From Gammaproteobacteria bacterium (lineage in GTDB: Bacteria > Pseudomonadota > Gammaproteobacteria > Pseudomonadales > Pseudohongiellaceae): a stretch of 64,000 nucleotides of DNA. Below are positions 29,216-45,194 of this stretch, one piece after another. How positions within the stretch are numbered: position 1 is the stretch's first letter; each line of letters starts with the position of its first letter. Below the pieces are notes generated by a model. It was not told the origin of the DNA and did not search any database. It saw only the letters and a list, made by a program, of their open reading frames with translations. The stretch is from contig JAURIJ010000004.1 in the NCBI GenBank assembly GCA_030832825.1, positions 1 to 64,000 of the forward strand, read 5' to 3'. The position numbers were made by a program, and so were the translations under genes.

Positions 29216-29382
29216 ATCGACGTGCAGTGGGGCGCGGTCGACTCGCCTGGTTCTGCGCCTCAGTCCGGGGGTGCGGAGAGAGGGTGCCACCCTCTGGACC
29301 TGCCGCGGACCCTTGGCCTCCCCCCGCGGTGCGGGCATACAGATGCCACGTCTGGCATCGCGAACTGTTGACGCGACGTCAT

Positions 29383-29485
29383 GGGGAGCGGGCTGCGGGT
29401 TTCGGACCGTCTGCCGCCAGGGATGGCGGCAGGCGAGCCTACATGGACGTATTCACGGCGTGTCCGAAACCCGCAGCCTGCTCCC
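29383..29485 (+). repeat. Palindromic intergenic repeat, copy 1
   Basis: A structured repeat before chrA. Outer arms 29384-29406 and 29463-29485 match at 22 of 23 bases. An inner hairpin (9-bp arms 29411-29419 and 29424-29432, loop GGGA) is followed by a conserved core running to TTCACGGCGTGTC. The same core is found in reverse orientation at 62391-62506. The remaining bases of this gap (29216-29382) contain no gene I can support. Confidence 0.8.
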
Positions 29486-29525
29486 AATGACCACCACGAA
29501 CAAATCATCGATCACGAGGTTTTGA

Positions 29526-30818
29526 ATGCCCGGACCCATTCCCTTTCTGGATGCTGTCGCCATCTGGTGGCGCATCGGCCTGCTCAGCTTCGGCGGCCCC
29601 GCCGGGCAGATCGCCCTCATGCACCGCATCCTCGTGGAAGAGAAACGCTGGATCGACGAGACCCGCTTCCTGCACGCCCTCAATTACTGCATGTTGCTGC
29701 CCGGTCCCGAGGCCCAGCAGCTCGCCACCTACATCGGCTGGCTGCTGCACGGCGTGCGCGGCGGACTGGTGGCGGGGCTGCTGTTCATCCTGCCCGGCGC
29801 CTGCGCCATCCTCGCGCTGTCCTGGCTGTATGTGCTGCTCGGCGATCTGCAGGTGGTGGAAGGCCTGTTCTTCGGCATGAAGGCCGCCGTGCTCGCGATC
29901 GTGGTGCAGGCCCTGCTGCGCATCGGCGGACGCGCTCTGCGCGGGCCGCTGCAGGTGGCGCTGGCGGTGGCCGGCTTCGTGGCCCTCTTCGCCATTGCGC
30001 TGCCGTTTCCGCTGGTGGTGCTGGGTGCGGGCGTGCTCGGCTACATCGCCGCCCGCCTGCGTCAGCACGAGCAGCTCGCGGTCGAGGCGCTGCCCGCGCC
30101 CGAGCGGCGGCCGGGCACGCGGCGGGCCGCGCTGGTCTGTCTGCTGCTGTGGCTGGGCACGGTGCTGGGGCTGCATCTGCTGCTGGGGCCGCAGAGCGTC
30201 TTCACCCAGCTGGCCGACTTCTTCTCACGCATGGCCGTGGTCACCTTCGGCGGCGCCTATTCGGTGCTCAGCTATGTCGCCCAGCAGGGTGTCGAGCAGT
30301 ACCAGTGGCTGCAGCCGGGCGAGATGCTGGACGGGCTGGGCCTGGCCGAGACCACACCCGGGCCGCTGATTCTCGTCACCCAGTTCGTGGGCTTTCTGGC
30401 TGCCTGGCGCGATGGCGGGTCCGAGCCTTCCCTGCTGACGGCAACGCTCGGCGCGCTGCTGACCACCTGGGTCACCTTCCTGCCCTGTTTCCTGTGGATC
30501 TTCGCCGGCGCGCCCCATGTGGAGCGCCTGCGCAGCCAGAAGGCGCTGTCGGCGGCGCTGGCCGCCATCACGGCGGTGGTGGTGGGCGTGATCGCCAACC
30601 TCGCGCTGTGGTTCGCGCTCAATCTACTGTTCCGCGAGACCTGGCGGATCGCCTCGTTCGGGCTGGACATGCAGCTGCCAGTGCTCGCCAGCGTCAACCT
30701 GCCGGAACTGGGGCTGTCGGCCATCGCCTTCGGGCTGCTGTTCGTGCTGCGGCTCGGCATGCTGTCCATGCTGGCGGTGTGTGCGCTGCTGGGCATGGCC
30801 TGGACGCTGCTGGTCTGA
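29526..30818 (+). CDS. chrA: Chromate transporter family protein
   Basis: 430 residues, about twelve membrane helices in two homologous halves. Half 1 starts RIGLLSFGGPAGQIALM with EKRWIDETRFLHALNYCMLL and LPGPEAQQLATYIGW; half 2 has MAVVTFGGAYSVLSYVAQQG and GLAETTPGPLILVTQFVGF. These are the CHR signature motifs. ChrA lowers cytoplasmic chromate using the proton gradient; many chromosomal homologues have no proven chromate role. It stands alone after the palindromic repeats. Confidence 0.9.
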   Translation: MPGPIPFLDAVAIWWRIGLLSFGGPAGQIALMHRILVEEKRWIDETRFLHALNYCMLLPGPEAQQLATYIGWLLHGVRGGLVAGLLFILPGACAILALSWLYVLLGDLQVVEGLFFGMKAAVLAIVVQALLRIGGRALRGPLQVALAVAGFVALFAIALPFPLVVLGAGVLGYIAARLRQHEQLAVEALPAPERRPGTRRAALVCLLLWLGTVLGLHLLLGPQSVFTQLADFFSRMAVVTFGGAYSVLSYVAQQGVEQYQWLQPGEMLDGLGLAETTPGPLILVTQFVGFLAAWRDGGSEPSLLTATLGALLTTWVTFLPCFLWIFAGAPHVERLRSQKALSAALAAITAVVVGVIANLALWFALNLLFRETWRIASFGLDMQLPVLASVNLPELGLSAIAFGLLFVLRLGMLSMLAVCALLGMAWTLLV

Positions 30819-30908
30819 GCCGCGTGCCTGCCCGTGGCGCGGCCGCAGGCCAGCTTCTATACTCGCTGCAGATGACCCTCAACCGCGACTGATCGCCCAG
30901 GAATCCCC

Positions 30909-34816: not shown

Positions 34817-34982
34817 GCGTGGGGTCTGCCTTGGTCGTCGAAGGTTTTTTGCCGGGGCGCGCGACTCGCCCGCCGCCAGAAGTGGGCGCCATGGTAGCAT
34901 GGCCGGGCCCTGCAGAGGCTCCGGCCCCCGGCCTGCGGCCTTCTGCGCGTTGCCACCTCTGACCCGGAACCAGACCAGACCC

Positions 34983-36272
34983 GTGAATCGATTCGCCTAC
35001 AACCTGCTGTTCACCCTCATCCTGCCGCTCATCGTGCTGCGCCTGCTCTGGCGCGCGCTCAAGGCCCCGGCGTACGCCCGGCGCTGGGCGGAGCGCTTCG
35101 GCCTGGTGCGGCTCTTGCCGCAGCAGCAGGCCCAGCGCGGCCAATGGCTGTGGGTGCACGCCGTGTCGGTGGGCGAGACCCTGGCCGCCGCGCCCTTGAT
35201 CCGCAAGCTGCGCGCCGAGCACCCGCAGATCCCGCTGGTGGTCACCACCATGACGCCCACCGGCTCGGAGCGTGTGCGCGACCTGTTCGGCAGCGATGTC
35301 TGCCACGTCTATGCACCCTACGATCACCCGTGGTCCGTGCAGGCCTTTCTCGCCCGTTTCCAGCCGCGCCTGTTGGTGATCATGGAAACCGAGCTGTGGC
35401 CCAACATCATCCATTGCACGAAGCAGCGCGGCGGGCAGGTGATCGTGGCGAATGCGCGTCTGTCGGAGAAATCCGCGCGTGGCTACGAGAAATTCCCCGC
35501 GTTGGGCAAGCCCATGTTGCGGCAGATCGACTGCATCGCCGCGCAGGCACGCAACGACGCCGAACGCTTCGTGCGCCTGGGCGTCACCGCGCAGCAATTG
35601 CAGATCACCGGCAGCATCAAGTTCGAGATCGAGCTGCCGGAGGACCTGGCCCCGCGTCAGCGCGAGCTGCAGCAACTGATCGGTCGCAATCGCCCCGTGC
35701 TGATCGCCGCCAGCACGCGCGAAGGCGAAGAGGAAAAAGTGCTGCAGGCCTTCCGCCAGTGCCTGAGCCAGGTGCCCGAGTTGCTGCTCTTGCTGGTGCC
35801 ACGTCACCCCGAAAGATTCAAGACGGTGGCGAAGCTGTGCGCCGATCAGGGGCTGAGTGTGGTGCGGCGCAGCGATGGCCTCGAGGCCGGGCCGCTCACC
35901 AAGGTCTTTCTGGGCGACAGCATGGGCGAGATGCTCACCTTTTTCAGTGTGGCCGACATCGCCTTCGTGGGCGGCAGTCTGGTGAACACCGGCTGCCACA
36001 ACGTGCTCGAACCTGCCGCCATGGGCCTGCCGGTGTTCGTCGGCCCGTCCCAGTTCAATTTCCAGACCATCTGTGAGCAGCTGGAGGAAGCCGGCGCACT
36101 GCAGACCTGCGCCGACGCCTCGGCGCTGGCTGCGGCCGTCATCGCCGCATGTCAGGACCCGGCCCTGCGTCAGCGCATGGGCCAGGCCGGCCGCACCCTG
36201 GTGGCGCAGAACCGCGGCGCCTTGCAGCGCACCTTCGACCTTGTCCTGCAGCATTACGGAAACGTGCCATGA
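34983..36272 (+). CDS. waaA: Kdo transferase WaaA
   Basis: 429 residues from GTG 34983, the standard size. A membrane anchor (RFAYNLLFTLILPLIVLRLL) is followed by the GT30 blocks LWVHAVSVGETLAAAPLIRK, METELWPNIIHCTKQRGG and VGGSLVNTGCHNVLEPAAMG. WaaA transfers Kdo from CMP-Kdo to lipid IVA and is essential in most gammaproteobacteria. Its stop overlaps the start of the next gene (ATGA), so the beta-lactamase-dipeptidase fusion is translationally coupled to it. Confidence 0.96.
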   Translation: MNRFAYNLLFTLILPLIVLRLLWRALKAPAYARRWAERFGLVRLLPQQQAQRGQWLWVHAVSVGETLAAAPLIRKLRAEHPQIPLVVTTMTPTGSERVRDLFGSDVCHVYAPYDHPWSVQAFLARFQPRLLVIMETELWPNIIHCTKQRGGQVIVANARLSEKSARGYEKFPALGKPMLRQIDCIAAQARNDAERFVRLGVTAQQLQITGSIKFEIELPEDLAPRQRELQQLIGRNRPVLIAASTREGEEEKVLQAFRQCLSQVPELLLLLVPRHPERFKTVAKLCADQGLSVVRRSDGLEAGPLTKVFLGDSMGEMLTFFSVADIAFVGGSLVNTGCHNVLEPAAMGLPVFVGPSQFNFQTICEQLEEAGALQTCADASALAAAVIAACQDPALRQRMGQAGRTLVAQNRGALQRTFDLVLQHYGNVP

Positions 36273-38563
36273 AGCCCTTTCACTTGCTTGTGTTCCTGCT
36301 TGCTTCTCTGTGCTCTGCCCTCACGCTGGCGCAGCCCACCCTGACGGAATTGCCCGCCATCGAGCGCCTCGCGGCCCGCACCGGCTACACCGGCACCGCG
36401 CTCGTGCATGACGCCGCCAGCGACACCTGGTACACCGGCAATGCCGCGCTGGCGCAGCAGCGTTTCATTCCCGCCTCGACGTTCAAGATCTTCAGCGCCC
36501 TGGTGGCGCTGGAAACCGGCGTGATCGCCGGCGTCGACAGCGTGATGCCCTGGGACGGCGTGGTGCGCGGTCGCACCGAGCTGAACCGCGATCTCACGCT
36601 GCTGGAGGGCTTTCGCCTTTCGGCCGTGCCGCACTTCCAGGCGCTGGTGCGCGAGATCGGCGCGCAGCGCATGCAGCAGCACATCGATGCGGTGGGCTAT
36701 GGCAATCGCGACATCTCCGGCGGCATCGACCAGTTCTGGCTGACGGGCGCGCTGCGCATTTCGCCGCTGGAGCAGGTGCAGTTCCTGCAGCGTCTGTACC
36801 ACAACGAGCTGCCGTTCTCACAGCGCAGCATGGACGCGGTGAAGACGCTGATGCTGTCGGAAGACACGCCGCAGCAACGCACGCGCGGCAAGACGGGCCT
36901 GGCCGTGCTCGACGGCGACGAGAACACCGGCTGGTGGGTAGGCTGGTTGGAGTCCGAGCGCGGTGTGCGTTTCGTGGCAGCCCTGCTGCAGGCGCGTGCG
37001 CCCGGTGAGGATTTCATTCCCGCGCGTCAGACACTCGCCCGCGCGGCGCTGGACGAAGTGACGTACGAGCGCGACATCCGCCCGCTGGCGCAGCAGGTGC
37101 GAGACGAGCAGGGCGAGGCGGCGCTGCACATGCTGCGCGAGCTGGTGGCGATTCCCACTTTCAATGTCGAGGGCCTGCCCCAGCACGAGAACCCCGAGTT
37201 CCTGCGCTTCGCCGCCACACTGGAACGTCTGGTGGAACTGTTCGGGCTGCAGTGGCGCAATGTGGACAATCGCGTGTACGAGATCAGCCTGCGCAACAGC
37301 GACGCGCCGGCCGACAGCGCCTTGATCGGCATCCACGCCCACGCCGACGTGGTGCCGGTGAACCCTGACGAATGGGTGCTGGCCGATGGCACGCGGCTCG
37401 ATCCGTTCACCGTGACGCAGATTGGCGACCGGCTCTACGGACGCGGCACCGAAGACGACAAGAACGGCATCGTGGCCGCACTGTTCGCGATGCGCGCGCT
37501 GCAGGACTCCGGCCTGCCGCTGCGGCGCCAGTTCCGCCTCTTGATCGACACGCGCGAGGAAACCGGCGGCGACGCCATGCCGTACTACCTCGAGCGCCAC
37601 CCCACGCCCGATTACAACATCGCGCTTGACGGCAGTTACCCCGTCATCATCGCCGAGAAGGGCTATGGCACCGTGATGGCGAACTTCCCCGCACGGCAGG
37701 CGACGGGCGAGGGCGCCGAAGTGGTGGCCCTGACCGGCGGGCTCGCCACCAACCAGATCCCGGCTTCGTCCACGGCCACGCTGTTGAGTGAGCGTCCCGA
37801 CGCCCTGGTCACGCTGCTGAACGAGCGCGGTGCGGTGTTCGCGGCGACTCACGGCAGCGACTTCCAGATCCAGGCCCGGCGCGACGGCGACGCGGTGCTG
37901 CTGGAGGTGTTCGGCGTGTCCGCGCACTCCTCCGAGCCGGAGACGGGCATCAACCCCGTGGCGCGTCTGCTGGCCTTCATGGATTCCCTGCGCGGGCAGA
38001 GCGTGTTCAAGACCAATCAGTTCACCGACGCCGCGCGCTACGCCACCGAGAACTGGGGCCTTGACCACTACGGCGAGACGATGGGCATCGCCTATCGTCA
38101 CGAGTTCATGGGCCCGCTGACCACGGCCCAGACCTTCGTTTCAACCGACACCGACGGCCTGCGCACCGCCGTGAATCTGCGCCTGCCTGTGGGCCGCGAG
38201 CCCGAGGCGCTGCAGCAGCAGGTCGAGGCGCGGCTCAACGAGTGGAAGGCCGCGACCGGCGTGGACGTGACGCTGACCCTCAGCGCCGGTGCGCCCATGT
38301 ACCGCAATCCGGAAGGCGCCTGGGTGAATGCGCTGCTCGACATCGCCGTGGCCAATCTCGACATTCCGCGCGAGTTCGGCTCCTCTGCCGGCGCCACGTC
38401 CATCCACGACCTGCCCAACGGCGTGCAGTTCGGCCTGGCCATGCCCAACGAGAAATACACCGGACACAATGCCAATGAGTTCAAGCGTCTGGACCAGTTC
38501 CTGACCGACCTGCAGATCGTGACGGAGATGTTCGCGCGCCTGGGGACGATGGGGGAGTTGTAG
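36269..38563 (+). CDS. Fusion protein: class D (OXA-type) beta-lactamase domain + M20 dipeptidase
   Basis: 764 residues. Residues 1-21 are a signal peptide (cleavage after ALTLA). Residues ~25-255 form a complete class D beta-lactamase: Ser70-Thr-Phe-Lys73 (IPASTFKIFSALVALE), Ser118-Ala-Val (LSAVPHFQALVREIG), Tyr144-Gly-Asn146 (VGYGNRDISGGIDQFWLTG), Trp157 and Lys208-Thr-Gly (RGKTGLAVL); numbering matches the class D scheme for the first three motifs. Residues ~275-764 are an M20/PepV-type metallopeptidase: HAHADVVP (His358, Asp360), GRGTEDDKNG, TREETGGD (Glu430/431), ALDGSYPV and a late His in NEKYTGHNANEF. Both active sites look intact. It is periplasmic and coupled to waaA. I know of no described protein with this architecture; a role in peptidoglycan turnover or beta-lactam handling is an inference. 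Confidence 0.93.
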   Translation: MKPFHLLVFLLASLCSALTLAQPTLTELPAIERLAARTGYTGTALVHDAASDTWYTGNAALAQQRFIPASTFKIFSALVALETGVIAGVDSVMPWDGVVRGRTELNRDLTLLEGFRLSAVPHFQALVREIGAQRMQQHIDAVGYGNRDISGGIDQFWLTGALRISPLEQVQFLQRLYHNELPFSQRSMDAVKTLMLSEDTPQQRTRGKTGLAVLDGDENTGWWVGWLESERGVRFVAALLQARAPGEDFIPARQTLARAALDEVTYERDIRPLAQQVRDEQGEAALHMLRELVAIPTFNVEGLPQHENPEFLRFAATLERLVELFGLQWRNVDNRVYEISLRNSDAPADSALIGIHAHADVVPVNPDEWVLADGTRLDPFTVTQIGDRLYGRGTEDDKNGIVAALFAMRALQDSGLPLRRQFRLLIDTREETGGDAMPYYLERHPTPDYNIALDGSYPVIIAEKGYGTVMANFPARQATGEGAEVVALTGGLATNQIPASSTATLLSERPDALVTLLNERGAVFAATHGSDFQIQARRDGDAVLLEVFGVSAHSSEPETGINPVARLLAFMDSLRGQSVFKTNQFTDAARYATENWGLDHYGETMGIAYRHEFMGPLTTAQTFVSTDTDGLRTAVNLRLPVGREPEALQQQVEARLNEWKAATGVDVTLTLSAGAPMYRNPEGAWVNALLDIAVANLDIPREFGSSAGATSIHDLPNGVQFGLAMPNEKYTGHNANEFKRLDQFLTDLQIVTEMFARLGTMGEL

Positions 38564-38580: not shown

Positions 38581-38994
38581 TCAGGCTTTGGGCATGTCGG
38601 CGGCGCGGTCGTCGGCAAGACCAAAGCCACCGAAGTTGAGTCCGAACTCCAGCGTAAAGTCCGTGGCCAGCACCGTGGGGATTAGGCGATGATCTTCCTT
38701 GACCACTGACACGATGCCATGACGTTCCAGCATCTTCAGCGTGCGCGATAGATTGCTCTTCTTGCGCCCTGACAGCTGCTCCAACTCCGCCAAGGATTGC
38801 GGCTTCTTTTCCACGATCAATCTCAGAAGCGTTTGATTGTCGTTGCTCAGGGTCTCGGCCATCGACCGCAGCGAATCAAACCAGATCTTCGGCTCGTCAC
38901 GACGAGGCGTGTAGATTCCCTTGGCGATCGCGATGGATCGCTTGGCGTAGTCCTCTCGGGAGAGTACCCCGAGCTTGATGGCGTGCGTTGTCAT
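38581..38994 (-). CDS. Winged-helix antitoxin-like regulator (TumA-like)
   Basis: 137 residues from ATG 38994, which overlaps the toxin stop by 4 bases. The central part is a winged helix-turn-helix (KPQSLAELEQLSGRKKSNLS, then RTLKMLERHGIVSVV), with flanking helices. Proteins of this type follow DUF6516/TumE-like toxin genes in toxin-first modules. It would neutralise the toxin and repress the operon; the palindrome at 39391-39411 is a candidate operator. The C-terminus (GLNFGGFGL) is unusual and may be strain-specific. Confidence 0.75.
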   Translation of the reverse strand: MTTHAIKLGVLSREDYAKRSIAIAKGIYTPRRDEPKIWFDSLRSMAETLSNDNQTLLRLIVEKKPQSLAELEQLSGRKKSNLSRTLKMLERHGIVSVVKEDHRLIPTVLATDFTLEFGLNFGGFGLADDRAADMPKA

Positions 38995-39347
38995 GGTAAC
39001 TCCTTGGTGTTCGCGACGATGGCATCGACTGCGGTCCAGAATTCCTGCACAAGCGCAGCAGGTGTATCGAAATCAAAGGCGATCACCAGGTGGGCGTCGT
39101 GGCGGTGGTCCCATTCGATTCGTCTTGATTCGAAGCGCTTTGTCTTCTTCACGGCGTGCGCGTTATCAAACCCCAGGAGTCGCCTGCCTTGGCGATCATG
39201 GAGCGTCAGACAGTAGCGAATACCGTGTGGTATTTCGATGCATGGAGTGACCAGTCTGGCCTCGAACTTCGTCCAATGGCCCGACTCCATGTAAAAGCGC
39301 TCGCCATCAAGCTCGAGCAGGCTCTGCAATCCATTGTCAGAAGCCAC
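38991..39347 (-). CDS. TumE/DUF6516-like toxin
   Basis: 118 residues from GTG 39347; an in-frame stop lies directly upstream, so this is the longest possible form. An alternative start is ATG 39290. The family pattern is visible in HGIRYCLTLHDRQGRRLLGF, DNAHAVKKT and WDHRHDAHLVIAFDFDTPAA, which match TumE-like (DUF6516) toxins that accompany HTH antitoxins. The mechanism is not established for most of them. It lies in the accessory island downstream of the waaA operon, on the opposite strand. Confidence 0.75.
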   Translation of the reverse strand: MASDNGLQSLLELDGERFYMESGHWTKFEARLVTPCIEIPHGIRYCLTLHDRQGRRLLGFDNAHAVKKTKRFESRRIEWDHRHDAHLVIAFDFDTPAALVQEFWTAVDAIVANTKELP

Positions 39348-39390
39348 ACATCACCAGTCGTCAAGAACTTGAACAATTCCGTGAAGTCCT

Positions 39391-39411
39391 TGTTATCGTC
39401 TGTTGATAACA
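39391..39411. promoter_or_regulatory. Candidate operator of the TumE/TumA-like operon
   Basis: TGTTATC and GATAACA form perfect 7-bp arms (39391-39397 and 39405-39411) around a 7-base spacer, 44 bases upstream of the toxin start. This is the usual place and shape for an autoregulatory antitoxin site. Confidence 0.45.
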
Positions 39412-39551
39412 CGAGCCTATCACAGCATTTGCGGGGTAGTCACGAAGGAGGAGCCCCGTGATTCAAGCGTAGTATCCAATGGGGAATTGTGAGAACTATG
39501 AGTCGGATCCGCTCAAGCAGAAGGGCCCGGCCACAACGCGAAAGAGTGCAG

Positions 39552-39626
39552 GCGTCTGGAAGCGTTGACGAACGAACTGCAGATCGTGACGGAGATTTTG
39601 AGAGGGTGGGGACGATGGCCGAGTTA
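39552..39626 (+). pseudogene. Decayed copy of the 3' end of the M20 dipeptidase gene
   Basis: This stretch repeats the end of the fusion gene (38485-38563) about 1.07 kb downstream. It reads RLEALTNELQIVTEIL in the matching frame, against RLDQFLTDLQIVTEMF in the intact gene. It shares CTGCAGATCGTGACGGAGAT and GGGGACGATGG, with a one-base deletion between them that destroys the frame. The TumE/TumA-like pair lies exactly between the two copies. The rest of 39348-39646 contains no gene I can support. Confidence 0.7.
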
Positions 39627-39646
39627 ACGGGAATCCAGCAAGTACT

Positions 39647-40786
39647 TCACAGCCGCACCTCGTCAGCGAACCGCCGCAATTTTGCGGGATTGATCCCCAA
39701 CAGGTCGCCGGCCTCCCGCAGCGCCAGCTGGCCATTGAAGGCTTGTGACAGCACCGCCCGGGAGAAGTGCTTGCTGAGCTGTGCGTTTCTGTTTCTGTGA
39801 CAACTGGGGCCGCCGTCACCGTGCTTAGTGCGCTCCGCCCACAGCGCCGTCTGTCGGGCTACATACTGCCGATACTGGTCGTCCGTGATGAAGCCGAGGG
39901 TCATCGCGCGGCGTGCACGTGTCCAGGTGCTGACGTGAAAGTGCGCTGCCAATGCCGGCAGATTCTCCGTCCACTCCGGCAGGTCCTGCCAGAGCTGACG
40001 GAACTCCTGCTCTGGCACCAGAAACTCTGCAGCCACCGCATTGCAAACGGTCTCGCTTCGATGCGCAGAGGATTCCTCGCCATCGGAGATTCCGGAAACG
40101 CCTGTCCAGATGTGGCAAAGCTCATGAATCAGCGTGAAGAGTCGCGCACCCGGCGCATCGGCATGGTTCACGAATATCACCGGCGCCATGTCATCCGCGA
40201 TCGCGAATCCACGAAGCTCGTCAACGCGCAGAGGCCGCGTGTGATGCCCGAGACTGGCCTCGCGCATCACCAGCACACCGATGCCTTCGATGCGCGAAAT
40301 CAGGTCACGGTAATAATCGTCCCACGCCCCGCGCACGGGATGCGCCGCCACTTTCAGCACGCGGCGCATGTCATTCACCAGTTCATGCACGGGGGCATCG
40401 GTGGGCATGCGAGCGGCCACAGGGCAGGGGCCGAGCAATTCGTTTTGCCGATAGTCCTTGTACCACTGCTGGCGATAGAGGGTGAGCTTGATCAGGTCGA
40501 GCAGCTCGGCGCTGGGCCGCCTGACCCCGCGATTCTCGAGTGTACGCAGGTCGGGAATCGGCAATTCCTCCTGCGGCGGCTCGCGAAGAAACAGATAACC
40601 GAATGGCACATGCGCCTTGCTGGCGAACACCTGCGCCTGCTTGAAGCTCAATGTCTCCTCACCAGATTCCCAACGCAACAGCCGCTCGGTGTCGACATCG
40701 CAGCGCCTGGCGAAGTGAGGCAAAGAAATGCCTGAGCGCTCTCGCGCCCAAGTCAGCATGCGGTGATTGATGAGGGCTGTTGGCAT
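39647..40786 (-). CDS. XRE-ImmA/IrrE family metallopeptidase regulator
   Basis: 379 residues. The N-terminus is an XRE helix-turn-helix (MLTWARERSGISLPHFARRC, then LLRWESGEETLSFKQAQVFA). A central linker precedes an ImmA/IrrE zinc peptidase with LFTLIHELCHIWTGVSG (HELCH zinc motif) and ETVCNAVAAEFLVPEQEF. The C-terminus ends GINPAKLRRFADEVRL. Such proteins usually sit next to a DUF4411/PIN-like toxin and act as its antitoxin and regulator; no such partner is found here, and the gene ends beside the decayed M20 fragment. The partner may have been lost. Confidence 0.88.
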   Translation of the reverse strand: MPTALINHRMLTWARERSGISLPHFARRCDVDTERLLRWESGEETLSFKQAQVFASKAHVPFGYLFLREPPQEELPIPDLRTLENRGVRRPSAELLDLIKLTLYRQQWYKDYRQNELLGPCPVAARMPTDAPVHELVNDMRRVLKVAAHPVRGAWDDYYRDLISRIEGIGVLVMREASLGHHTRPLRVDELRGFAIADDMAPVIFVNHADAPGARLFTLIHELCHIWTGVSGISDGEESSAHRSETVCNAVAAEFLVPEQEFRQLWQDLPEWTENLPALAAHFHVSTWTRARRAMTLGFITDDQYRQYVARQTALWAERTKHGDGGPSCHRNRNAQLSKHFSRAVLSQAFNGQLALREAGDLLGINPAKLRRFADEVRL

Positions 40787-40816
40787 GGCATTGCTCGAGA
40801 TTTGCCTTGGGTATAG

Positions 40817-41131
40817 TCAAGAAGTCGCGGTAGAGCCTCCCTTGCGCTGTCGCGCCACATACCTGCGCAAGACCTCATCCATGCGGACCTGCCAACCATC
40901 GCCAGTGCCTCGAAAATACTCAATGACTTCCTGGCTGTAACGAACGGACACCAGCAATTTCGGCTTCTCCACCTTGGGTCTGCCACGCAGTGACTTCATG
41001 GGGACCATTGCCTTGAGCTGCTCATCGGTCAATGGAGTTGCGTGCGGATCGCTTTCTGCGGCAGCGACGATGCGGCGGTTCTCGGCTTCCGACGGCATGA
41101 TGATCGTGGGCTTATTGAATGTTCTCGACAT
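40817..41131 (-). CDS. brnA: BrnA-type antitoxin
   Basis: 104 residues. The N-terminal part resembles the toxin-binding half of BrnA (DPHATPLTDEQLKAMVPM) and the C-terminus is the ribbon-helix-helix-like DNA-binding part (VSVRYSQEVIEYFRGTGDGW, then QVRMDEVLRRYV). It overlaps the end of brnT by 20 bases, the normal order in brnTA. BrnA neutralises BrnT and represses the operon through a palindrome over the promoter, which is present at 41389-41402. Confidence 0.88.
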   Translation of the reverse strand: MSRTFNKPTIIMPSEAENRRIVAAAESDPHATPLTDEQLKAMVPMKSLRGRPKVEKPKLLVSVRYSQEVIEYFRGTGDGWQVRMDEVLRRYVARQRKGGSTATS

Positions 41132-41384
41132 AGTGACTCACCTCTCGACGGGTGGCTGGGCGCAAACTGATGATTCTTCGCGTTGAAGTTGTTTCCACAA
41201 AGGCCACGTAGTAGACCGTCCTGGTTTCAGGAGCGAGAGCAATCATTCGACACTCCGCATAGCGAAACCGTTCGTCAACCGCAACCAGGGCAGCATCCCA
41301 CTCCAGGTGTCTGGCCAGTGCCAGAGACACCCCATGCTTGAGGATGTTCGCCTTGTCCTTCCTTGGATCAAAGGTAATATCCAT
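41112..41384 (-). CDS. brnT: BrnT-type ribonuclease toxin
   Basis: 90 residues from ATG 41384, the family length (DUF497). The N-terminus is FDPRKDKANILKHGVSLALA, with the conserved K-x-x-x-N-x-x-K-H-G motif, followed by RMIALAPETRTVYYVAFVET and a Arg-rich ISLRPATRREVSHYVE end. BrnT is a RelE-like ribonuclease inhibited by BrnA. The promoter sits directly at the start codon, so the message may be nearly leaderless. A longer in-frame start at 41447 would add an unlikely tail. Confidence 0.9.
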   Translation of the reverse strand: MDITFDPRKDKANILKHGVSLALARHLEWDAALVAVDERFRYAECRMIALAPETRTVYYVAFVETTSTRRIISLRPATRREVSHYVENIQ

Positions 41385-41388
41385 TTTA

Positions 41389-41416
41389 ATTGTAGCTACA
41401 ATAAATGAGCTGTCAA
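41389..41416 (-). promoter_or_regulatory. brnTA promoter with operator palindrome over the -10
   Basis: On the minus strand TTGACA (41416-41411) is followed after 16 bases by TACAAT (41394-41389). The perfect 14-bp palindrome ATTGTAGCTACAAT (41389-41402) covers the -10. Transcription would begin about at the brnT ATG (41384). This fits autorepression by BrnA. Confidence 0.75.
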
Positions 41417-41578
41417 ATGTCGAAGTGCGCGGAACTGCCAGCGCCACGACTTAAGTATAGGCGCTGATCGTGACCTGCCCGGCTATTTTCGGACCAGTTA
41501 AAACTTGAGGTAATCCTCCCCTGAAAGCATGCTGCTCATAAGTAGAATTTTCTCGCGCCATCGTCCGAGGAGATTCAC

Positions 41579-41845
41579 ATGAAGTAATCACGTTTTAGCG
41601 ACTGCCAGATACTGGCGATATTGAAGCAGGCGGACTCTGGAGTGCCGATAGCAGAGCTGTGCCGGGAGTACGGGATGCGCAGCGCCAGTTTTTACAAATG
41701 GCGAGCGAAATTCGGAGGAATGGACGCCTCTCTGATGGCTCGGATGAAGGAGCTGGAGGAGGAGAACCGACGGTTGAAGAAGATGTACGCTGAGGAGCGA
41801 CTGAAGTCGGAGATCATTCAGGAAGCCATGGCAAAAAAGTCGTGA
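41579..41845 (+). pseudogene. IS3-family orfA, stop codon at codon 3
   Basis: The natural start ATG 41579 has a strong ribosome-binding site (GAGGAG) but reads Met-Lys-stop (TAA 41585-41587); the frame then continues SRFSDCQILAILKQADSGVP into a normal helix-turn-helix and a leucine-zipper-like [21 protein letters not shown] single substitution restores the frame (for example CAA or AAA to TAA). Translation could only restart at TTG 41621. OrfA normally regulates and, by frameshift, forms the OrfAB transposase. Confidence 0.85.
41833..41839 (+). other. -1 frameshift slippery site of the IS element
   Basis: A-AAA-AAG just before the orfA stop, with orfB in the -1 frame. This is the usual programmed frameshift signal of IS3 elements producing the OrfAB transposase. 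Confidence 0.7.
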
Positions 41846-42666
41846 AGCCATCTCCGCGCAAAGAGATGGCTGCCCAGGCGGTGAGTGTTCGGGGCATAAG
41901 CATCTGGTTAGCCTGTGAGATATTTCAGTTCAGTCAAAGCTGTTTTCGCTACACCCGGGTATTGAATAGCGAGAATGCCATAATTGCCGATTGGTTGGTG
42001 CGTCTGACGCATGCTTGGCGCGACTGGGGTTTGGGGCTGTGCTACCTGCATCTGCGCAATGTCAAAAGCTTTACGTGGAACCATAAGCGTGTCTATCGGA
42101 TCTACAAGGAGTTGGAGTTGAATCTGCGGATCAAACCGAAGAAGCGATTGGTGCGCGAGAAGCCAGAGCCCCTGGCAGTGCCCGACTCGATCAACCAGTG
42201 CTGGTCGATGGACTTCATGCATGATCAGTTGTCTGATGGACGCAGCATTCGACTGTTCAATGTGATTGACGACTTCAACAGAGAAGGCCTAGGAATTGAA
42301 GTTGATTTTTCGCTACCCAGCGAGCGTGTGATACGGACATTGGATCAGATCATCAATTGGCGAGGAAAGCCCAAAATGATCCGCTGCGACAATGGTCCGG
42401 AGTACATCAGTGCTGCGCTTTGTACATGGGCTGAGAAGCATCGGATCACGTTGCTCCACATTCAGCGTGGCAAGCCACAGCAAAATGCATATGTGGAACG
42501 CTACAATCGAAACGTAAGATACGGTTGGCTAGCGCAGTACTTGTTCGACACCATTGAGGAAGTACAGGAGTTTGCGACTCGATGGTTATGGAGTTACAAC
42601 AACGAGAGACCGAACATGGCTCTTGGTGGCATTACCCCGAAACAGAAGTTGGCCATGGTGGCCTGA
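41842..42666 (+). CDS. IS3-family orfB transposase (DDE)
   Basis: 274 residues, integrase-type catalytic domain. DDE residues are visible: Asp in [12 protein letters not shown], Asp in [16 protein letters not shown] and Glu in [15 protein letters not shown]; the C-terminus reads [19 protein letters not shown]. The pattern fits the IS407-like branch of IS3. It follows orfA in the -1 frame. The gene is intact, but the orfA nonsense codon should block normal OrfAB production. Confidence 0.92.
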
Positions 42667-42734
42667 CTCTACTTCTGAGCTCGGTTAAAAATGGGGGGAT
42701 TACCGGACTGGCTCTGTGTTTTTAGCGCTTTAAG

Positions 42735-43292
42735 CTAGCAAACTTTCGCCTCAAGAAACTCATCCACGACAGCTTGAACAATAGTTCGGTCGATCATGTG
42801 TCCCTGTCCTTCGAATATCGAAAAACGGTCTGCTTGAAGCGTTTTGGCAATCTCTTGCAATGCTGACAAATCACATTGATAGTCCAAGCTCCCCACACAC
42901 ATCACAAAATACTCGGGCTTTTTTAGATCATGGCTGCGCAATGATGCTGGGATTCGCTCTTTGTGCGGCGGTCTGAAATAGCCAATTTTTGACACCAGCG
43001 CACCAACGACAGGACTTAACAACAAGACCTTCGTTCTTAACTGCGATAAGCCAATTAAGCTGTTCAGCAGCAGATATGCGCCATACGAGTTAGCAATCAC
43101 GGGAATTCTCTCTTTCTCGATGCGCTGGAAGTGAGTGCGTATGGCTGCGAGCTGATCTTCGAACTCCCCTTTTAGAAATTCCTCTGATAAACCAATACCA
43201 CTGACCGCTTTCGCTCGCTCTTTGAGGAAGACGCCCAAGCCTTCATTAATCGATCCACCACGACCCGTCACATAAAAGATTTCTTCAACCAT
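42735..43292 (-). CDS. Small alpha/beta hydrolase-like protein
   Basis: 185 residues from ATG 43292 with a ribosome-binding site GGGGAA. The nucleophile elbow PVIANSYGAYLLLNSLIGL has Ser in an N-S-Y-G context, an Asp occurs in MCVGSLDYQCDL, and a His in EGQGHMIDRT, consistent with a catalytic triad. The base composition is visibly more AT-rich than the flanking core genes, which suggests foreign origin. Similar short hydrolases are common in cassettes and islands. Substrate unknown. Confidence 0.75.
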   Translation of the reverse strand: MVEEIFYVTGRGGSINEGLGVFLKERAKAVSGIGLSEEFLKGEFEDQLAAIRTHFQRIEKERIPVIANSYGAYLLLNSLIGLSQLRTKVLLLSPVVGALVSKIGYFRPPHKERIPASLRSHDLKKPEYFVMCVGSLDYQCDLSALQEIAKTLQADRFSIFEGQGHMIDRTIVQAVVDEFLEAKVC

Positions 43293-43486
43293 ACTAATTC
43301 CCCAATTTGGGTAAAGTGTCGTGTGACACTACACTTGCAAGCGGGTTCTACCCCGTTGTCAGTGGCAAATGCATAGATCCATCCAGAAGTTTCGACCCAA
43401 TCCAAATGTGCGGGCTTGATTCTGTCATGGCGAATTTCCCATTCTGTCAATTCTTCGAAGCCGGACTCTAATAAAGGCGTATTCAT
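43268..43486 (-). CDS. Hypothetical 72-residue protein, possibly a truncated GIY-YIG domain
   Basis: 72 residues, overlapping the hydrolase start by 25 bases. The middle part SGWIYAFATDNGVE resembles the start of GIY-YIG nuclease-like domains (G-(V/I)-Y-A-F-V), but the expected Y-I-G does not follow; the sequence breaks into an unrelated end. It may be a remnant joined to the hydrolase by a deletion. No ribosome-binding site is visible. Confidence 0.35.
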   Translation of the reverse strand: MNTPLLESGFEELTEWEIRHDRIKPAHLDWVETSGWIYAFATDNGVEPACKCSVTRHFTQIGELVWLKKSFM

Positions 43487-43671
43487 ATCGTGTGATGCAC
43501 TCTCCGACTAATTAATTGCTGCATAGAAACAGAACATTTTAAAAGGGCGCTCCAATTGGTTGGCAGGTAGCCTACACCGCCCCTCTCGTGTCGGGCCAGC
43601 AAACATTCTCGCAATTCTGCATTTCCCACCATCCACTGCTTCGCCAAAGCAAGTCGCTGATCGATCAACAT
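43483..43671 (-). CDS. Possible small protein, uncertain
   Basis: 62 residues, ending in a TGA that overlaps the ATG of the 72-residue frame. No family recognised. It may be coding or chance sequence in the island. The remaining 48 bases up to pepQ hold nothing I can identify. Confidence 0.18.
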   Translation of the reverse strand: MLIDQRLALAKQWMVGNAELRECLLARHERGGVGYLPTNWSALLKCSVSMQQLISRRVHHTI

Positions 43672-43719
43672 GGCCCGCCTGCATGTCGAGCCAAATCCTC
43701 CGAAAATCCGATCCTTCTT

Positions 43720-45063
43720 TTAAATCCTCACCCTCGTCAAATTCTCCACCCCGCCCGCCGTCACCAGCACATTGTCCTCGATGCGGATGCCACCCAGCGG
43801 CGTCAGTTCATCCACCAATCCCCAATTGATCAACTTGCCACGCGCGCTGCTGCGCTCCGGCTCCAGCAGCACGGGAATGAAATACAGCCCGGGCTCGATG
43901 GTGAACACCTGGCCCACCGCGGTGGAACGGGTGGTTCGCAATGAGGGGTATTCGGGCGGTGGCGTCTGCGTCTCGCCGCGCGCGTTCTTCAGGCGGCCGC
44001 CGACGTCGTGCACCTGGATGCCGAGCAGATGGCCCACGCCGTGGGGCATGAACAGCGTGCTCACCTTGTGGGCCAGCAGTTCCTCGGCGCTGCCGTGGCA
44101 GAGGCCGGACTGCAGCAGGATGTCGGTGATGCCCTCGTGGCAGGCCACGTGGATGTCGGGGTAGGGGATGCCGGGTCGCACTCTTTCGATCAGGCCCTGC
44201 TGCAGTTCGCTCATGGCGTCGACGAGTGCGACGAAGCGCGGGTCGGTGTGCGGGCGCGTCCAGGTGCGGGTGATGTCGGAGCAGTAGCCGTGGGTCTTGC
44301 AGCCGGCGTCGATCAGCAGCACCTGGCTGTGCTCGCCGCTGCGCCGGCGCTTGTTCTGGTAATGCAGGATCGCGGCCTTCTCGTCGAGGGCGACGATGTT
44401 GGTGTAGGGCGTCTCCTCATCAAGAATGTGGCAGGCCTGCAGATAGGCCATGTGAATCGCGTACTCGCTGCCGCCGGCCTCGAAGGCGTGGCGCGCGGCG
44501 GTGTGGCCCTGCAGGGCCAGGCGGTTGGCGGCGCGGATGCAGGCCACCTCGTACTCGGATTTCACCGCGCGCTGGAAGTCTAGCCAGTGCAGCAGGGCGG
44601 AGGGGTTGTGACTCTCGGGCGGCAGGCCGATGGCGGTGGCGAAGGGGGTGTTCTCGCCGAGAAACGCGATGCGGGCCAGCGGTGGAATCTCCACGCCGCT
44701 CAGGCCCTGCAGGGCGTCGGCCACGCCCTGGCTGCGCTCCAGCGTGTGCACCTGCCATTGCGAGCGCACCCAGTCGTCGAGGTGGGCAGTCTGTTCGTAC
44801 CAGAAGTCGCGCGGCACCACCTGAAAATACACGGGCGTCTGGCCGGGCAGGATCAACACCACCTGCTCGGGCCTGTTCACCGGCAGCCAGTGGCTGAAGT
44901 GGCCGTAGGCGCGGAAGGGGGGTGTCTGGTCGTCGGCATAGTGGTAGCGGGCCGAGCCGCTGTGGATCAGCACGGCGTCGAAATGGCCGGTGGCGAGCAG
45001 GGCGTCGGTGTAGAGCGCCTGCAGGCGCTCGATGTGCTGGGCGTAGTGCGTGGCGAAGGGCAT
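43720..45063 (-). CDS. pepQ: Xaa-Pro dipeptidase PepQ
   Basis: 447 residues from ATG 45063, the standard size. Metal ligands of the pita-bread fold are visible: Asp in VLLIDAGCKTHGYCSDITRT, His in FMPHGVGHLLGIQVHDVGG and Glu in FTIEPGLYFIPVLLEPERS, plus the final Glu in GGIRIEDNVLVT. It hydrolyses dipeptides ending in proline and some organophosphates. It marks the return to core genome after the island. A TGCTATCGT extended -10 lies about 30 bases upstream on the minus strand (45095-45103). Confidence 0.95.
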   Translation of the reverse strand: MPFATHYAQHIERLQALYTDALLATGHFDAVLIHSGSARYHYADDQTPPFRAYGHFSHWLPVNRPEQVVLILPGQTPVYFQVVPRDFWYEQTAHLDDWVRSQWQVHTLERSQGVADALQGLSGVEIPPLARIAFLGENTPFATAIGLPPESHNPSALLHWLDFQRAVKSEYEVACIRAANRLALQGHTAARHAFEAGGSEYAIHMAYLQACHILDEETPYTNIVALDEKAAILHYQNKRRRSGEHSQVLLIDAGCKTHGYCSDITRTWTRPHTDPRFVALVDAMSELQQGLIERVRPGIPYPDIHVACHEGITDILLQSGLCHGSAEELLAHKVSTLFMPHGVGHLLGIQVHDVGGRLKNARGETQTPPPEYPSLRTTRSTAVGQVFTIEPGLYFIPVLLEPERSSARGKLINWGLVDELTPLGGIRIEDNVLVTAGGVENLTRVRI

Positions 45064-45194
45064 GGTGTGTCTCTGTCTGTGTGATGATGCCCTGACGATA
45101 GCACAGACATGGTGAGAGCGGCTTGGCCGCAACCGTTCGCTGACGGCGCCTCGGGGCCGGTTCGCAGTGTTTGCCGCCCCGCCGGATGTGCAGC

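Follow-up and report, generated by a model that had tools for sequence, protein, structure and literature searches.

Class D beta-lactamases (OXA enzymes) have mostly been studied as resistance genes, and the sole related fusion that we met in the open-access literature is the LRA-13 group, in which a class C and a class D beta-lactamase are joined (PMC5967600). Overexpression of OXA-23 changes peptidoglycan composition, and residual hydrolysis of DD-peptides has been reported in all beta-lactamase classes (PMC8649759). Among M20 dipeptidases, PepV of Lactococcus lactis connects the use of dipeptides with wall synthesis by way of alanine supply (PMC7117943), and a pepV mutant of Staphylococcus aureus has an unchanged oxacillin MIC (PMC12723384).

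The locus described here, which lies in a window of 64,000 nucleotides (the whole stretch of DNA that was analysed), encodes a class D beta-lactamase and an M20 dipeptidase in one chain. This fusion is a new combination of two known enzyme families, found so far only in one uncultured genus of Pseudomonadales type. The preliminary description of this DNA had stated that no such enzyme was known, and in agreement with it no OXA::M20 fusion was found in the open-access literature, where absence is weak evidence. As judged from its sequence, the product may best be read as a soluble periplasmic two-enzyme chain that was made by gene fusion and has two largely independent activities, to which we assign a probability of roughly 0.55.

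Architecture of the fusion protein

The fusion gene OXA::M20 (36269..38563, + strand, stop codon included) was delimited with domain profiles and three further orthologous fusions. It encodes a single chain of 764 aa in which a signal peptide is followed by a class D domain and then by an M20 dipeptidase domain, with the join at residue 262/263; its Pfam content is limited to Transpeptidase, Peptidase_M20, and M20_dimer. The putative signal peptide (36269..36331, + strand, approximately residues 1-21), judged by eye from the sequence, ends with T-L-A before Q and has no lipobox; its region is hydrophobic and fast-evolving across the four fusions known. The gene is preceded by waaA, which encodes a Kdo transferase (34977..36272, + strand; NF004388, 564 bits at a cut-off of 438). 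The ATG of the fusion gene (36269-36271) shares bases with the TGA stop codon of waaA (36270-36272), and this ATGA overlap is present in 4/4 fusions. A promoter scan, which carries little weight, revealed no promoter between waaA and the fusion gene. Thus, the preliminary description was right in that both enzymes and a signal peptide occur in one chain, as domain profiles and sequence indicate, and in that the gene starts within the waaA stop codon.

The class D domain (36332..37054, + strand, residues 22-262; nucleophile S70 at 36476-36478) is matched by the NCBIfam class D model NF012161 over residues 34-264 (E 7.5e-66). Its score of 221.8 bits is below the 250-bit cut-off of this model, which is a naming threshold and no biochemical definition, and free-standing OXAs of the same family are likewise below it (181-233 bits). 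All class D residues were found, namely S70 and K73 (STFK), S118-x-V120, Y144-G-N146, W157, K208-T209-G210, and R253, with W157 and R253 as the equivalents of W154 and R250. Across 22 sequences, S70, K73, S118, N146, W157, KTG, and R253 are invariant, and V120 and Y144 are nearly so. The AlphaFold2 model of this part superimposes on OXA-48 with a Z score of 36 and an rmsd of 1.4 A over 242 residues, as expected of a class D fold, and the top-scoring solved sequence is 6nhs of Nostoc (43% identity in structural alignment). Elsewhere in the genome there is one match of a class A model (51 bits, in a 447-aa frame).

The M20 dipeptidase domain (37055..38560, + strand, residues 263-764) was assigned with NF004809, an alignment with PepV 1LFW, and Foldseek. 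The match to NF004809 (PRK06156 'dipeptidase') extends over residues 257-762 (E 3.4e-200, 666.8 bits, above the cut-off of 438) and covers positions 73-571 of the 573 in the profile, so that the leading 72 profile positions are absent. TIGR01887, which describes the M20/Sapep family Mn-dependent dipeptidases, scores 213.4 bits and exceeds its cut-off of 207.95, and the PepV equivalogs NF005591 and TIGR01886 score 233.4 and 178.3 bits, under their cut-offs of 435 and 632. The PepV/Sapep set of metal-binding and catalytic residues is complete by position (H358, D360, D396, E430, E431, D454, H733, H553, and R638) when referred to the PepV residue numbers, and these residues are invariant in the relatives aligned. 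Foldseek matches this part to Sapep 3ki9 (TM 0.81, by target) and PepV 1lfw (0.79); the fold assignment of the M20 half is based on Foldseek and on residues, the rows of VIA-align being filled by the OXA domain. In sequence, the M20 half is 56-70% identical to free-standing enzymes of congeners and Pseudomonas. Residue alignment thereby confirms that the OXA motifs and the M20 metal ligands are both complete, as had been noted earlier.

Conservation of the join and its predicted structure

As the genome is fragmentary (72 contigs), an artefact of assembly or sequencing that joins two genes could be considered, and an error near codon 260 had been named in the preliminary description as the finding that would undo its proposal. 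A search of 57 related genomes revealed the same in-frame chain in three more of them (G005, 92% identity; G007 and G002, 86%), which brings the fusion to four species-level genomes within the genus, at 85-92% identity. The identical in-frame join recurs without the intergenic stretch in all four genomes, of which three were traced to separately named MAG records (L038 of G005, L039 of G007, and L040 of G002); this recurrence rules out an assembly chimera and makes the probability of any such artefact negligible. The title of record L039 (Klebsiella pneumoniae) looks wrong, as the record carries the syntenic locus of the fusion-bearing genus. The title of another record, L067 (Pantoea), looks wrong as well, its M20 gene resembling one of Pseudomonas.

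Synonymous divergence among the four fusions reaches 0.6 in both halves. The dN/dS values are 0.10-0.25 for the OXA half, 0.075-0.125 for the M20 half, and 0.04-0.22 for the junction (residues 251-285), which is a short region with some dS values near saturation. Low dN/dS in both halves and across the join, despite this divergence, indicates that the chain has been kept as one protein.

The AlphaFold2 model predicts a continuous helix at the junction (37013..37147, + strand, residues 249-293), with mean pLDDT over 10 residues of 87-96; the measure that covers the predicted arrangement of the two domains is the pTM of the whole model, 0.77. Residues 249-262 form the end of the OXA domain, including R253, and residues 263-293 correspond to M20 helix 80-110 of the G001 protein. 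In stand-alone M20 enzymes, a signal peptide comes first, then three short helices, and after these the long helix (80-110 in G001). The fusion lacks both the M20 signal peptide and the three-helix N-terminal cap, and about 10 C-terminal residues of the congeners' OXA are also missing in it. In the model, the OXA domain occupies the place of the M20 cap, and no flexible linker is predicted.

The exact replacement of the three-helix cap by the OXA domain, with two helices joined end to end, would fit an accidental fusion that was kept as each half is useful, with the OXA part serving the M20 part mainly as a folding module or as a new cap at its N-terminus. We consider this improbable, since the conservation of all OXA catalytic residues and a dN/dS of 0.10-0.25 are more than a cap needs. 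The two-enzyme chain with independent activities, which we prefer, would retain both catalytic sites.

The slot downstream of waaA and the origin of the fusion

The gene order sppA, aldo/keto reductase and FAD oxidoreductase genes on the other strand, waaA, a variable slot, and pepQ is found genus-wide. The slot contains the fusion in G000, G002, G005, and G007, separate OXA and M20 genes in the sister species G001 and G003, and M20 alone in G006 and G012, where OXA is absent. It contains neither gene in G008, G010, and G013, in which OXA is located elsewhere. In G004 and G009, OXA is also located elsewhere and there is no slot-type M20, and in G011 OXA is present, the slot-type M20 is absent, and waaA was not found. 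In total, OXA is present in 12 of the 14 genomes of the genus, six genomes have OXA without the slot-type M20, and two have M20 without OXA. In the waaA-OXA-M20 tandem of G001 and G003 the gaps are 17-20 nt, and the M20 gene has a clear ribosome-binding site.

The right border of the slot is formed by the conserved pepQ (M24 Xaa-Pro dipeptidase; 43720..45132, - strand). Between the fusion gene and pepQ, the window contains an insert of toxin-antitoxin-like and integrase genes (38581..43719, strand unassigned; HTH/TumE, M78 with HTH, BrnT/BrnA, and rve integrase core), which is separate from the fusion, partly common to G005, and not detected in G007 or G002. Upstream of sppA, a 503-aa ORF (window 29381-30892) has no Pfam or NCBIfam match; its position is conserved genus-wide, at 32-54% identity.

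In the species tree, built from four syntenic proteins and with every branch at 100/100, (G001,G003) and (G006,G012) stand against the fused clade plus the OXA-only clade. The fusions form one clade in the OXA tree and one in the M20 tree, and neither tree conflicts with the species tree. As each of the two halves of the genus tree holds OXA and M20, both genes are probably ancestral, and we infer that the position of OXA in the operon is ancestral too. Given the fit of the OXA and M20 trees to the species tree, the simplest origin is one deletion in an inherited tandem: in the simplest history, the operon waaA-OXA-M20 was ancestral, one deletion fused OXA and M20, and losses or relocation took place elsewhere. 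In one lineage, such a deletion would have removed about 250 bp that began at the OXA stop codon and included the M20 start, signal peptide, and three-helix cap. A recent acquisition of OXA is unsupported, as both halves have the same G+C content as waaA (0.67) and the OXA tree agrees with the species tree. An origin from a mobile element was rejected as well, since searches of 72,556 plasmids, 50,697 phage records, and viral contigs gave no full-length match to the fusion.

A search for class D and M20 domains in one chain, which the preliminary description had proposed as a check, recovered four genomes of the genus and none outside it among the approximately 1,100 Pseudomonadota genomes sampled. 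No other OXA::M20 chain occurs among the class D genes of 391 genomes of the order, 369 of the class, and 398 of the phylum, these samples being overlapping. Two other unusual class D frames were seen in them, one of 635 aa and one that encodes an OXA::esterase chain. In the latter, from a genome of the same order (G044, L030:646-2250:-), a single frame of 535 aa holds an OXA domain followed by a PF00756 esterase domain. Near stand-alone M20 genes, mostly of Pseudomonas, OXA was found within the flanks at 0 of 76 loci, and the neighbours of these genes vary and gave no clue to the substrate. Tandem duplicates of M20 dipeptidase genes occur in Pseudomonas marginalis and P. simiae (L106:5656-9424 and L108). 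OXA genes were seen directly downstream of a gene for DUF885, a possible hydrolase (L128:6482-9092 in G016, and L130 in G027), with an SSF symporter gene after OXA in G016 (L128). In G032 (L124:10569-12005), OXA is convergent with a gene for a BlaR1-like M56 peptidase that bears a TonB_C domain.

The preliminary description had suggested that the enzyme opens beta-lactams and then cleaves the product. In such a two-step breakdown, serving detoxification or nutrition, the OXA domain would open the ring and the M20 domain would hydrolyse the product amide. It might explain why a slot-type M20 was found beside a class D gene in one genus only and ended there in a fusion, and an aminopenicillin, once opened, resembles a dipeptide through its free amino group. 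On the other hand, PepV-type enzymes grip a dipeptide at its carboxylate as well as at its free amino end, and penicilloates that lack a free amine do not present both groups. Step-by-step penicillin breakdown is unsupported, since OXA and M20 are apart in eight congeners and PaaA/PaaC family proteins are absent from the genome, which is 91% complete, although other routes exist. In the open-access literature on beta-lactam catabolism, no M20 enzyme tied to penicilloate was found. We therefore regard this explanation as improbable too.

Possible function and comparison with known systems

According to the preferred reading, a two-enzyme chain with largely independent activities, one signal peptide would export both enzymes. 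The OXA domain would hydrolyse beta-lactams via acyl-Ser70 with carboxylated Lys73, and the M20 domain would use a two-metal centre to hydrolyse dipeptides or small peptides, as their residues suggest. The two sites may be largely independent, held together by the OXA helix that continues into the first M20 helix, and the benefit would lie in co-export at a 1:1 ratio, with no common reaction path.

Purifying selection over the join, together with the continuous helix, could mean that the arrangement itself matters, that is, that the domains are coupled. The OXA and M20 domains might then work one after the other on a single periplasmic substrate, for instance a peptidoglycan peptide or an opened beta-lactam, and the helix would set both sites. 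We hold this to be doubtful; congeners that keep OXA alone or M20 alone argue against obligate coupling.

A role in processing peptidoglycan peptides during envelope assembly with LPS had also been suggested. The LPS part is unsupported, since the link is one of gene position, and the slot after waaA varies: it may hold the fusion, a pair of genes, a single gene, or neither of them. The peptidoglycan part is retained as a tentative alternative, unlikely in our judgement, though the least so of the alternatives considered: the OXA domain would bind or trim D-Ala-D-Ala stems as a weak DD-peptidase or sensor, the M20 domain would cleave released or recycled dipeptides, and resistance would be secondary. 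It is consistent with both domains facing the periplasm, as would be expected, with the retention of OXA in 12 of 14 genomes, and with the reported effect of OXA-23 on the wall, the residual DD-peptide hydrolysis (PMC8649759), and the connection of the M20 relative PepV with wall synthesis (PMC7117943). However, PepV of Lactococcus serves alanine supply and nitrogen metabolism and is no periplasmic wall peptidase, the oxacillin MIC of the S. aureus pepV mutant is unchanged (PMC12723384), six congeners have OXA without the slot-type M20, and the sequence bears no sign of D-amino-acid specificity.

The fusion lineage offers a natural experiment on a non-clinical role of class D enzymes. Most stages (tandem, fused, and each partner alone) are visible within the genus, which makes the question of a common pathway testable; if only co-export matters, the locus would still be a clean case of operon fusion by deletion. 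Moreover, a beta-lactamase fused to another hydrolase could be missed or half-annotated where the best single model names the protein, as the dipeptidase model scores 667 bits and the class D model 222 bits in the fusion.

BlaR1 and MecR1 resemble the fusion in that a class D-like domain is joined to a metallopeptidase domain. In BlaR1, however, a membrane-bound M56 domain is N-terminal of the sensor, whereas the fusion starts with a signal peptide and has its M20 domain at the C-terminal end; Pfam detected no M56 domain, and the BlaR1 model scores 164.8 at a cut-off of 400. With LRA-13, the fusion shares a class D domain and a second complete hydrolase in one chain, in environmental bacteria. 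The partner in LRA-13 is a class C serine beta-lactamase, which widens the drug range, whereas here it is a metallo-dipeptidase, in another lineage, and Pfam detects no class C domain. The free-standing class D enzymes OXA-48, OXA-10, and YbXI of Nostoc have the same fold and all the catalytic motifs, but the C-terminal helix of the fusion's OXA domain continues into a 500-residue peptidase. Finally, the PRK06156/NF004809 enzymes of Pseudomonas and relatives, as well as Sapep and PepV, share with the fusion a full M20 domain with the complete metal-binding and catalytic set; in the fusion, the OXA domain replaces their signal peptide and cap (profile positions 1-72).
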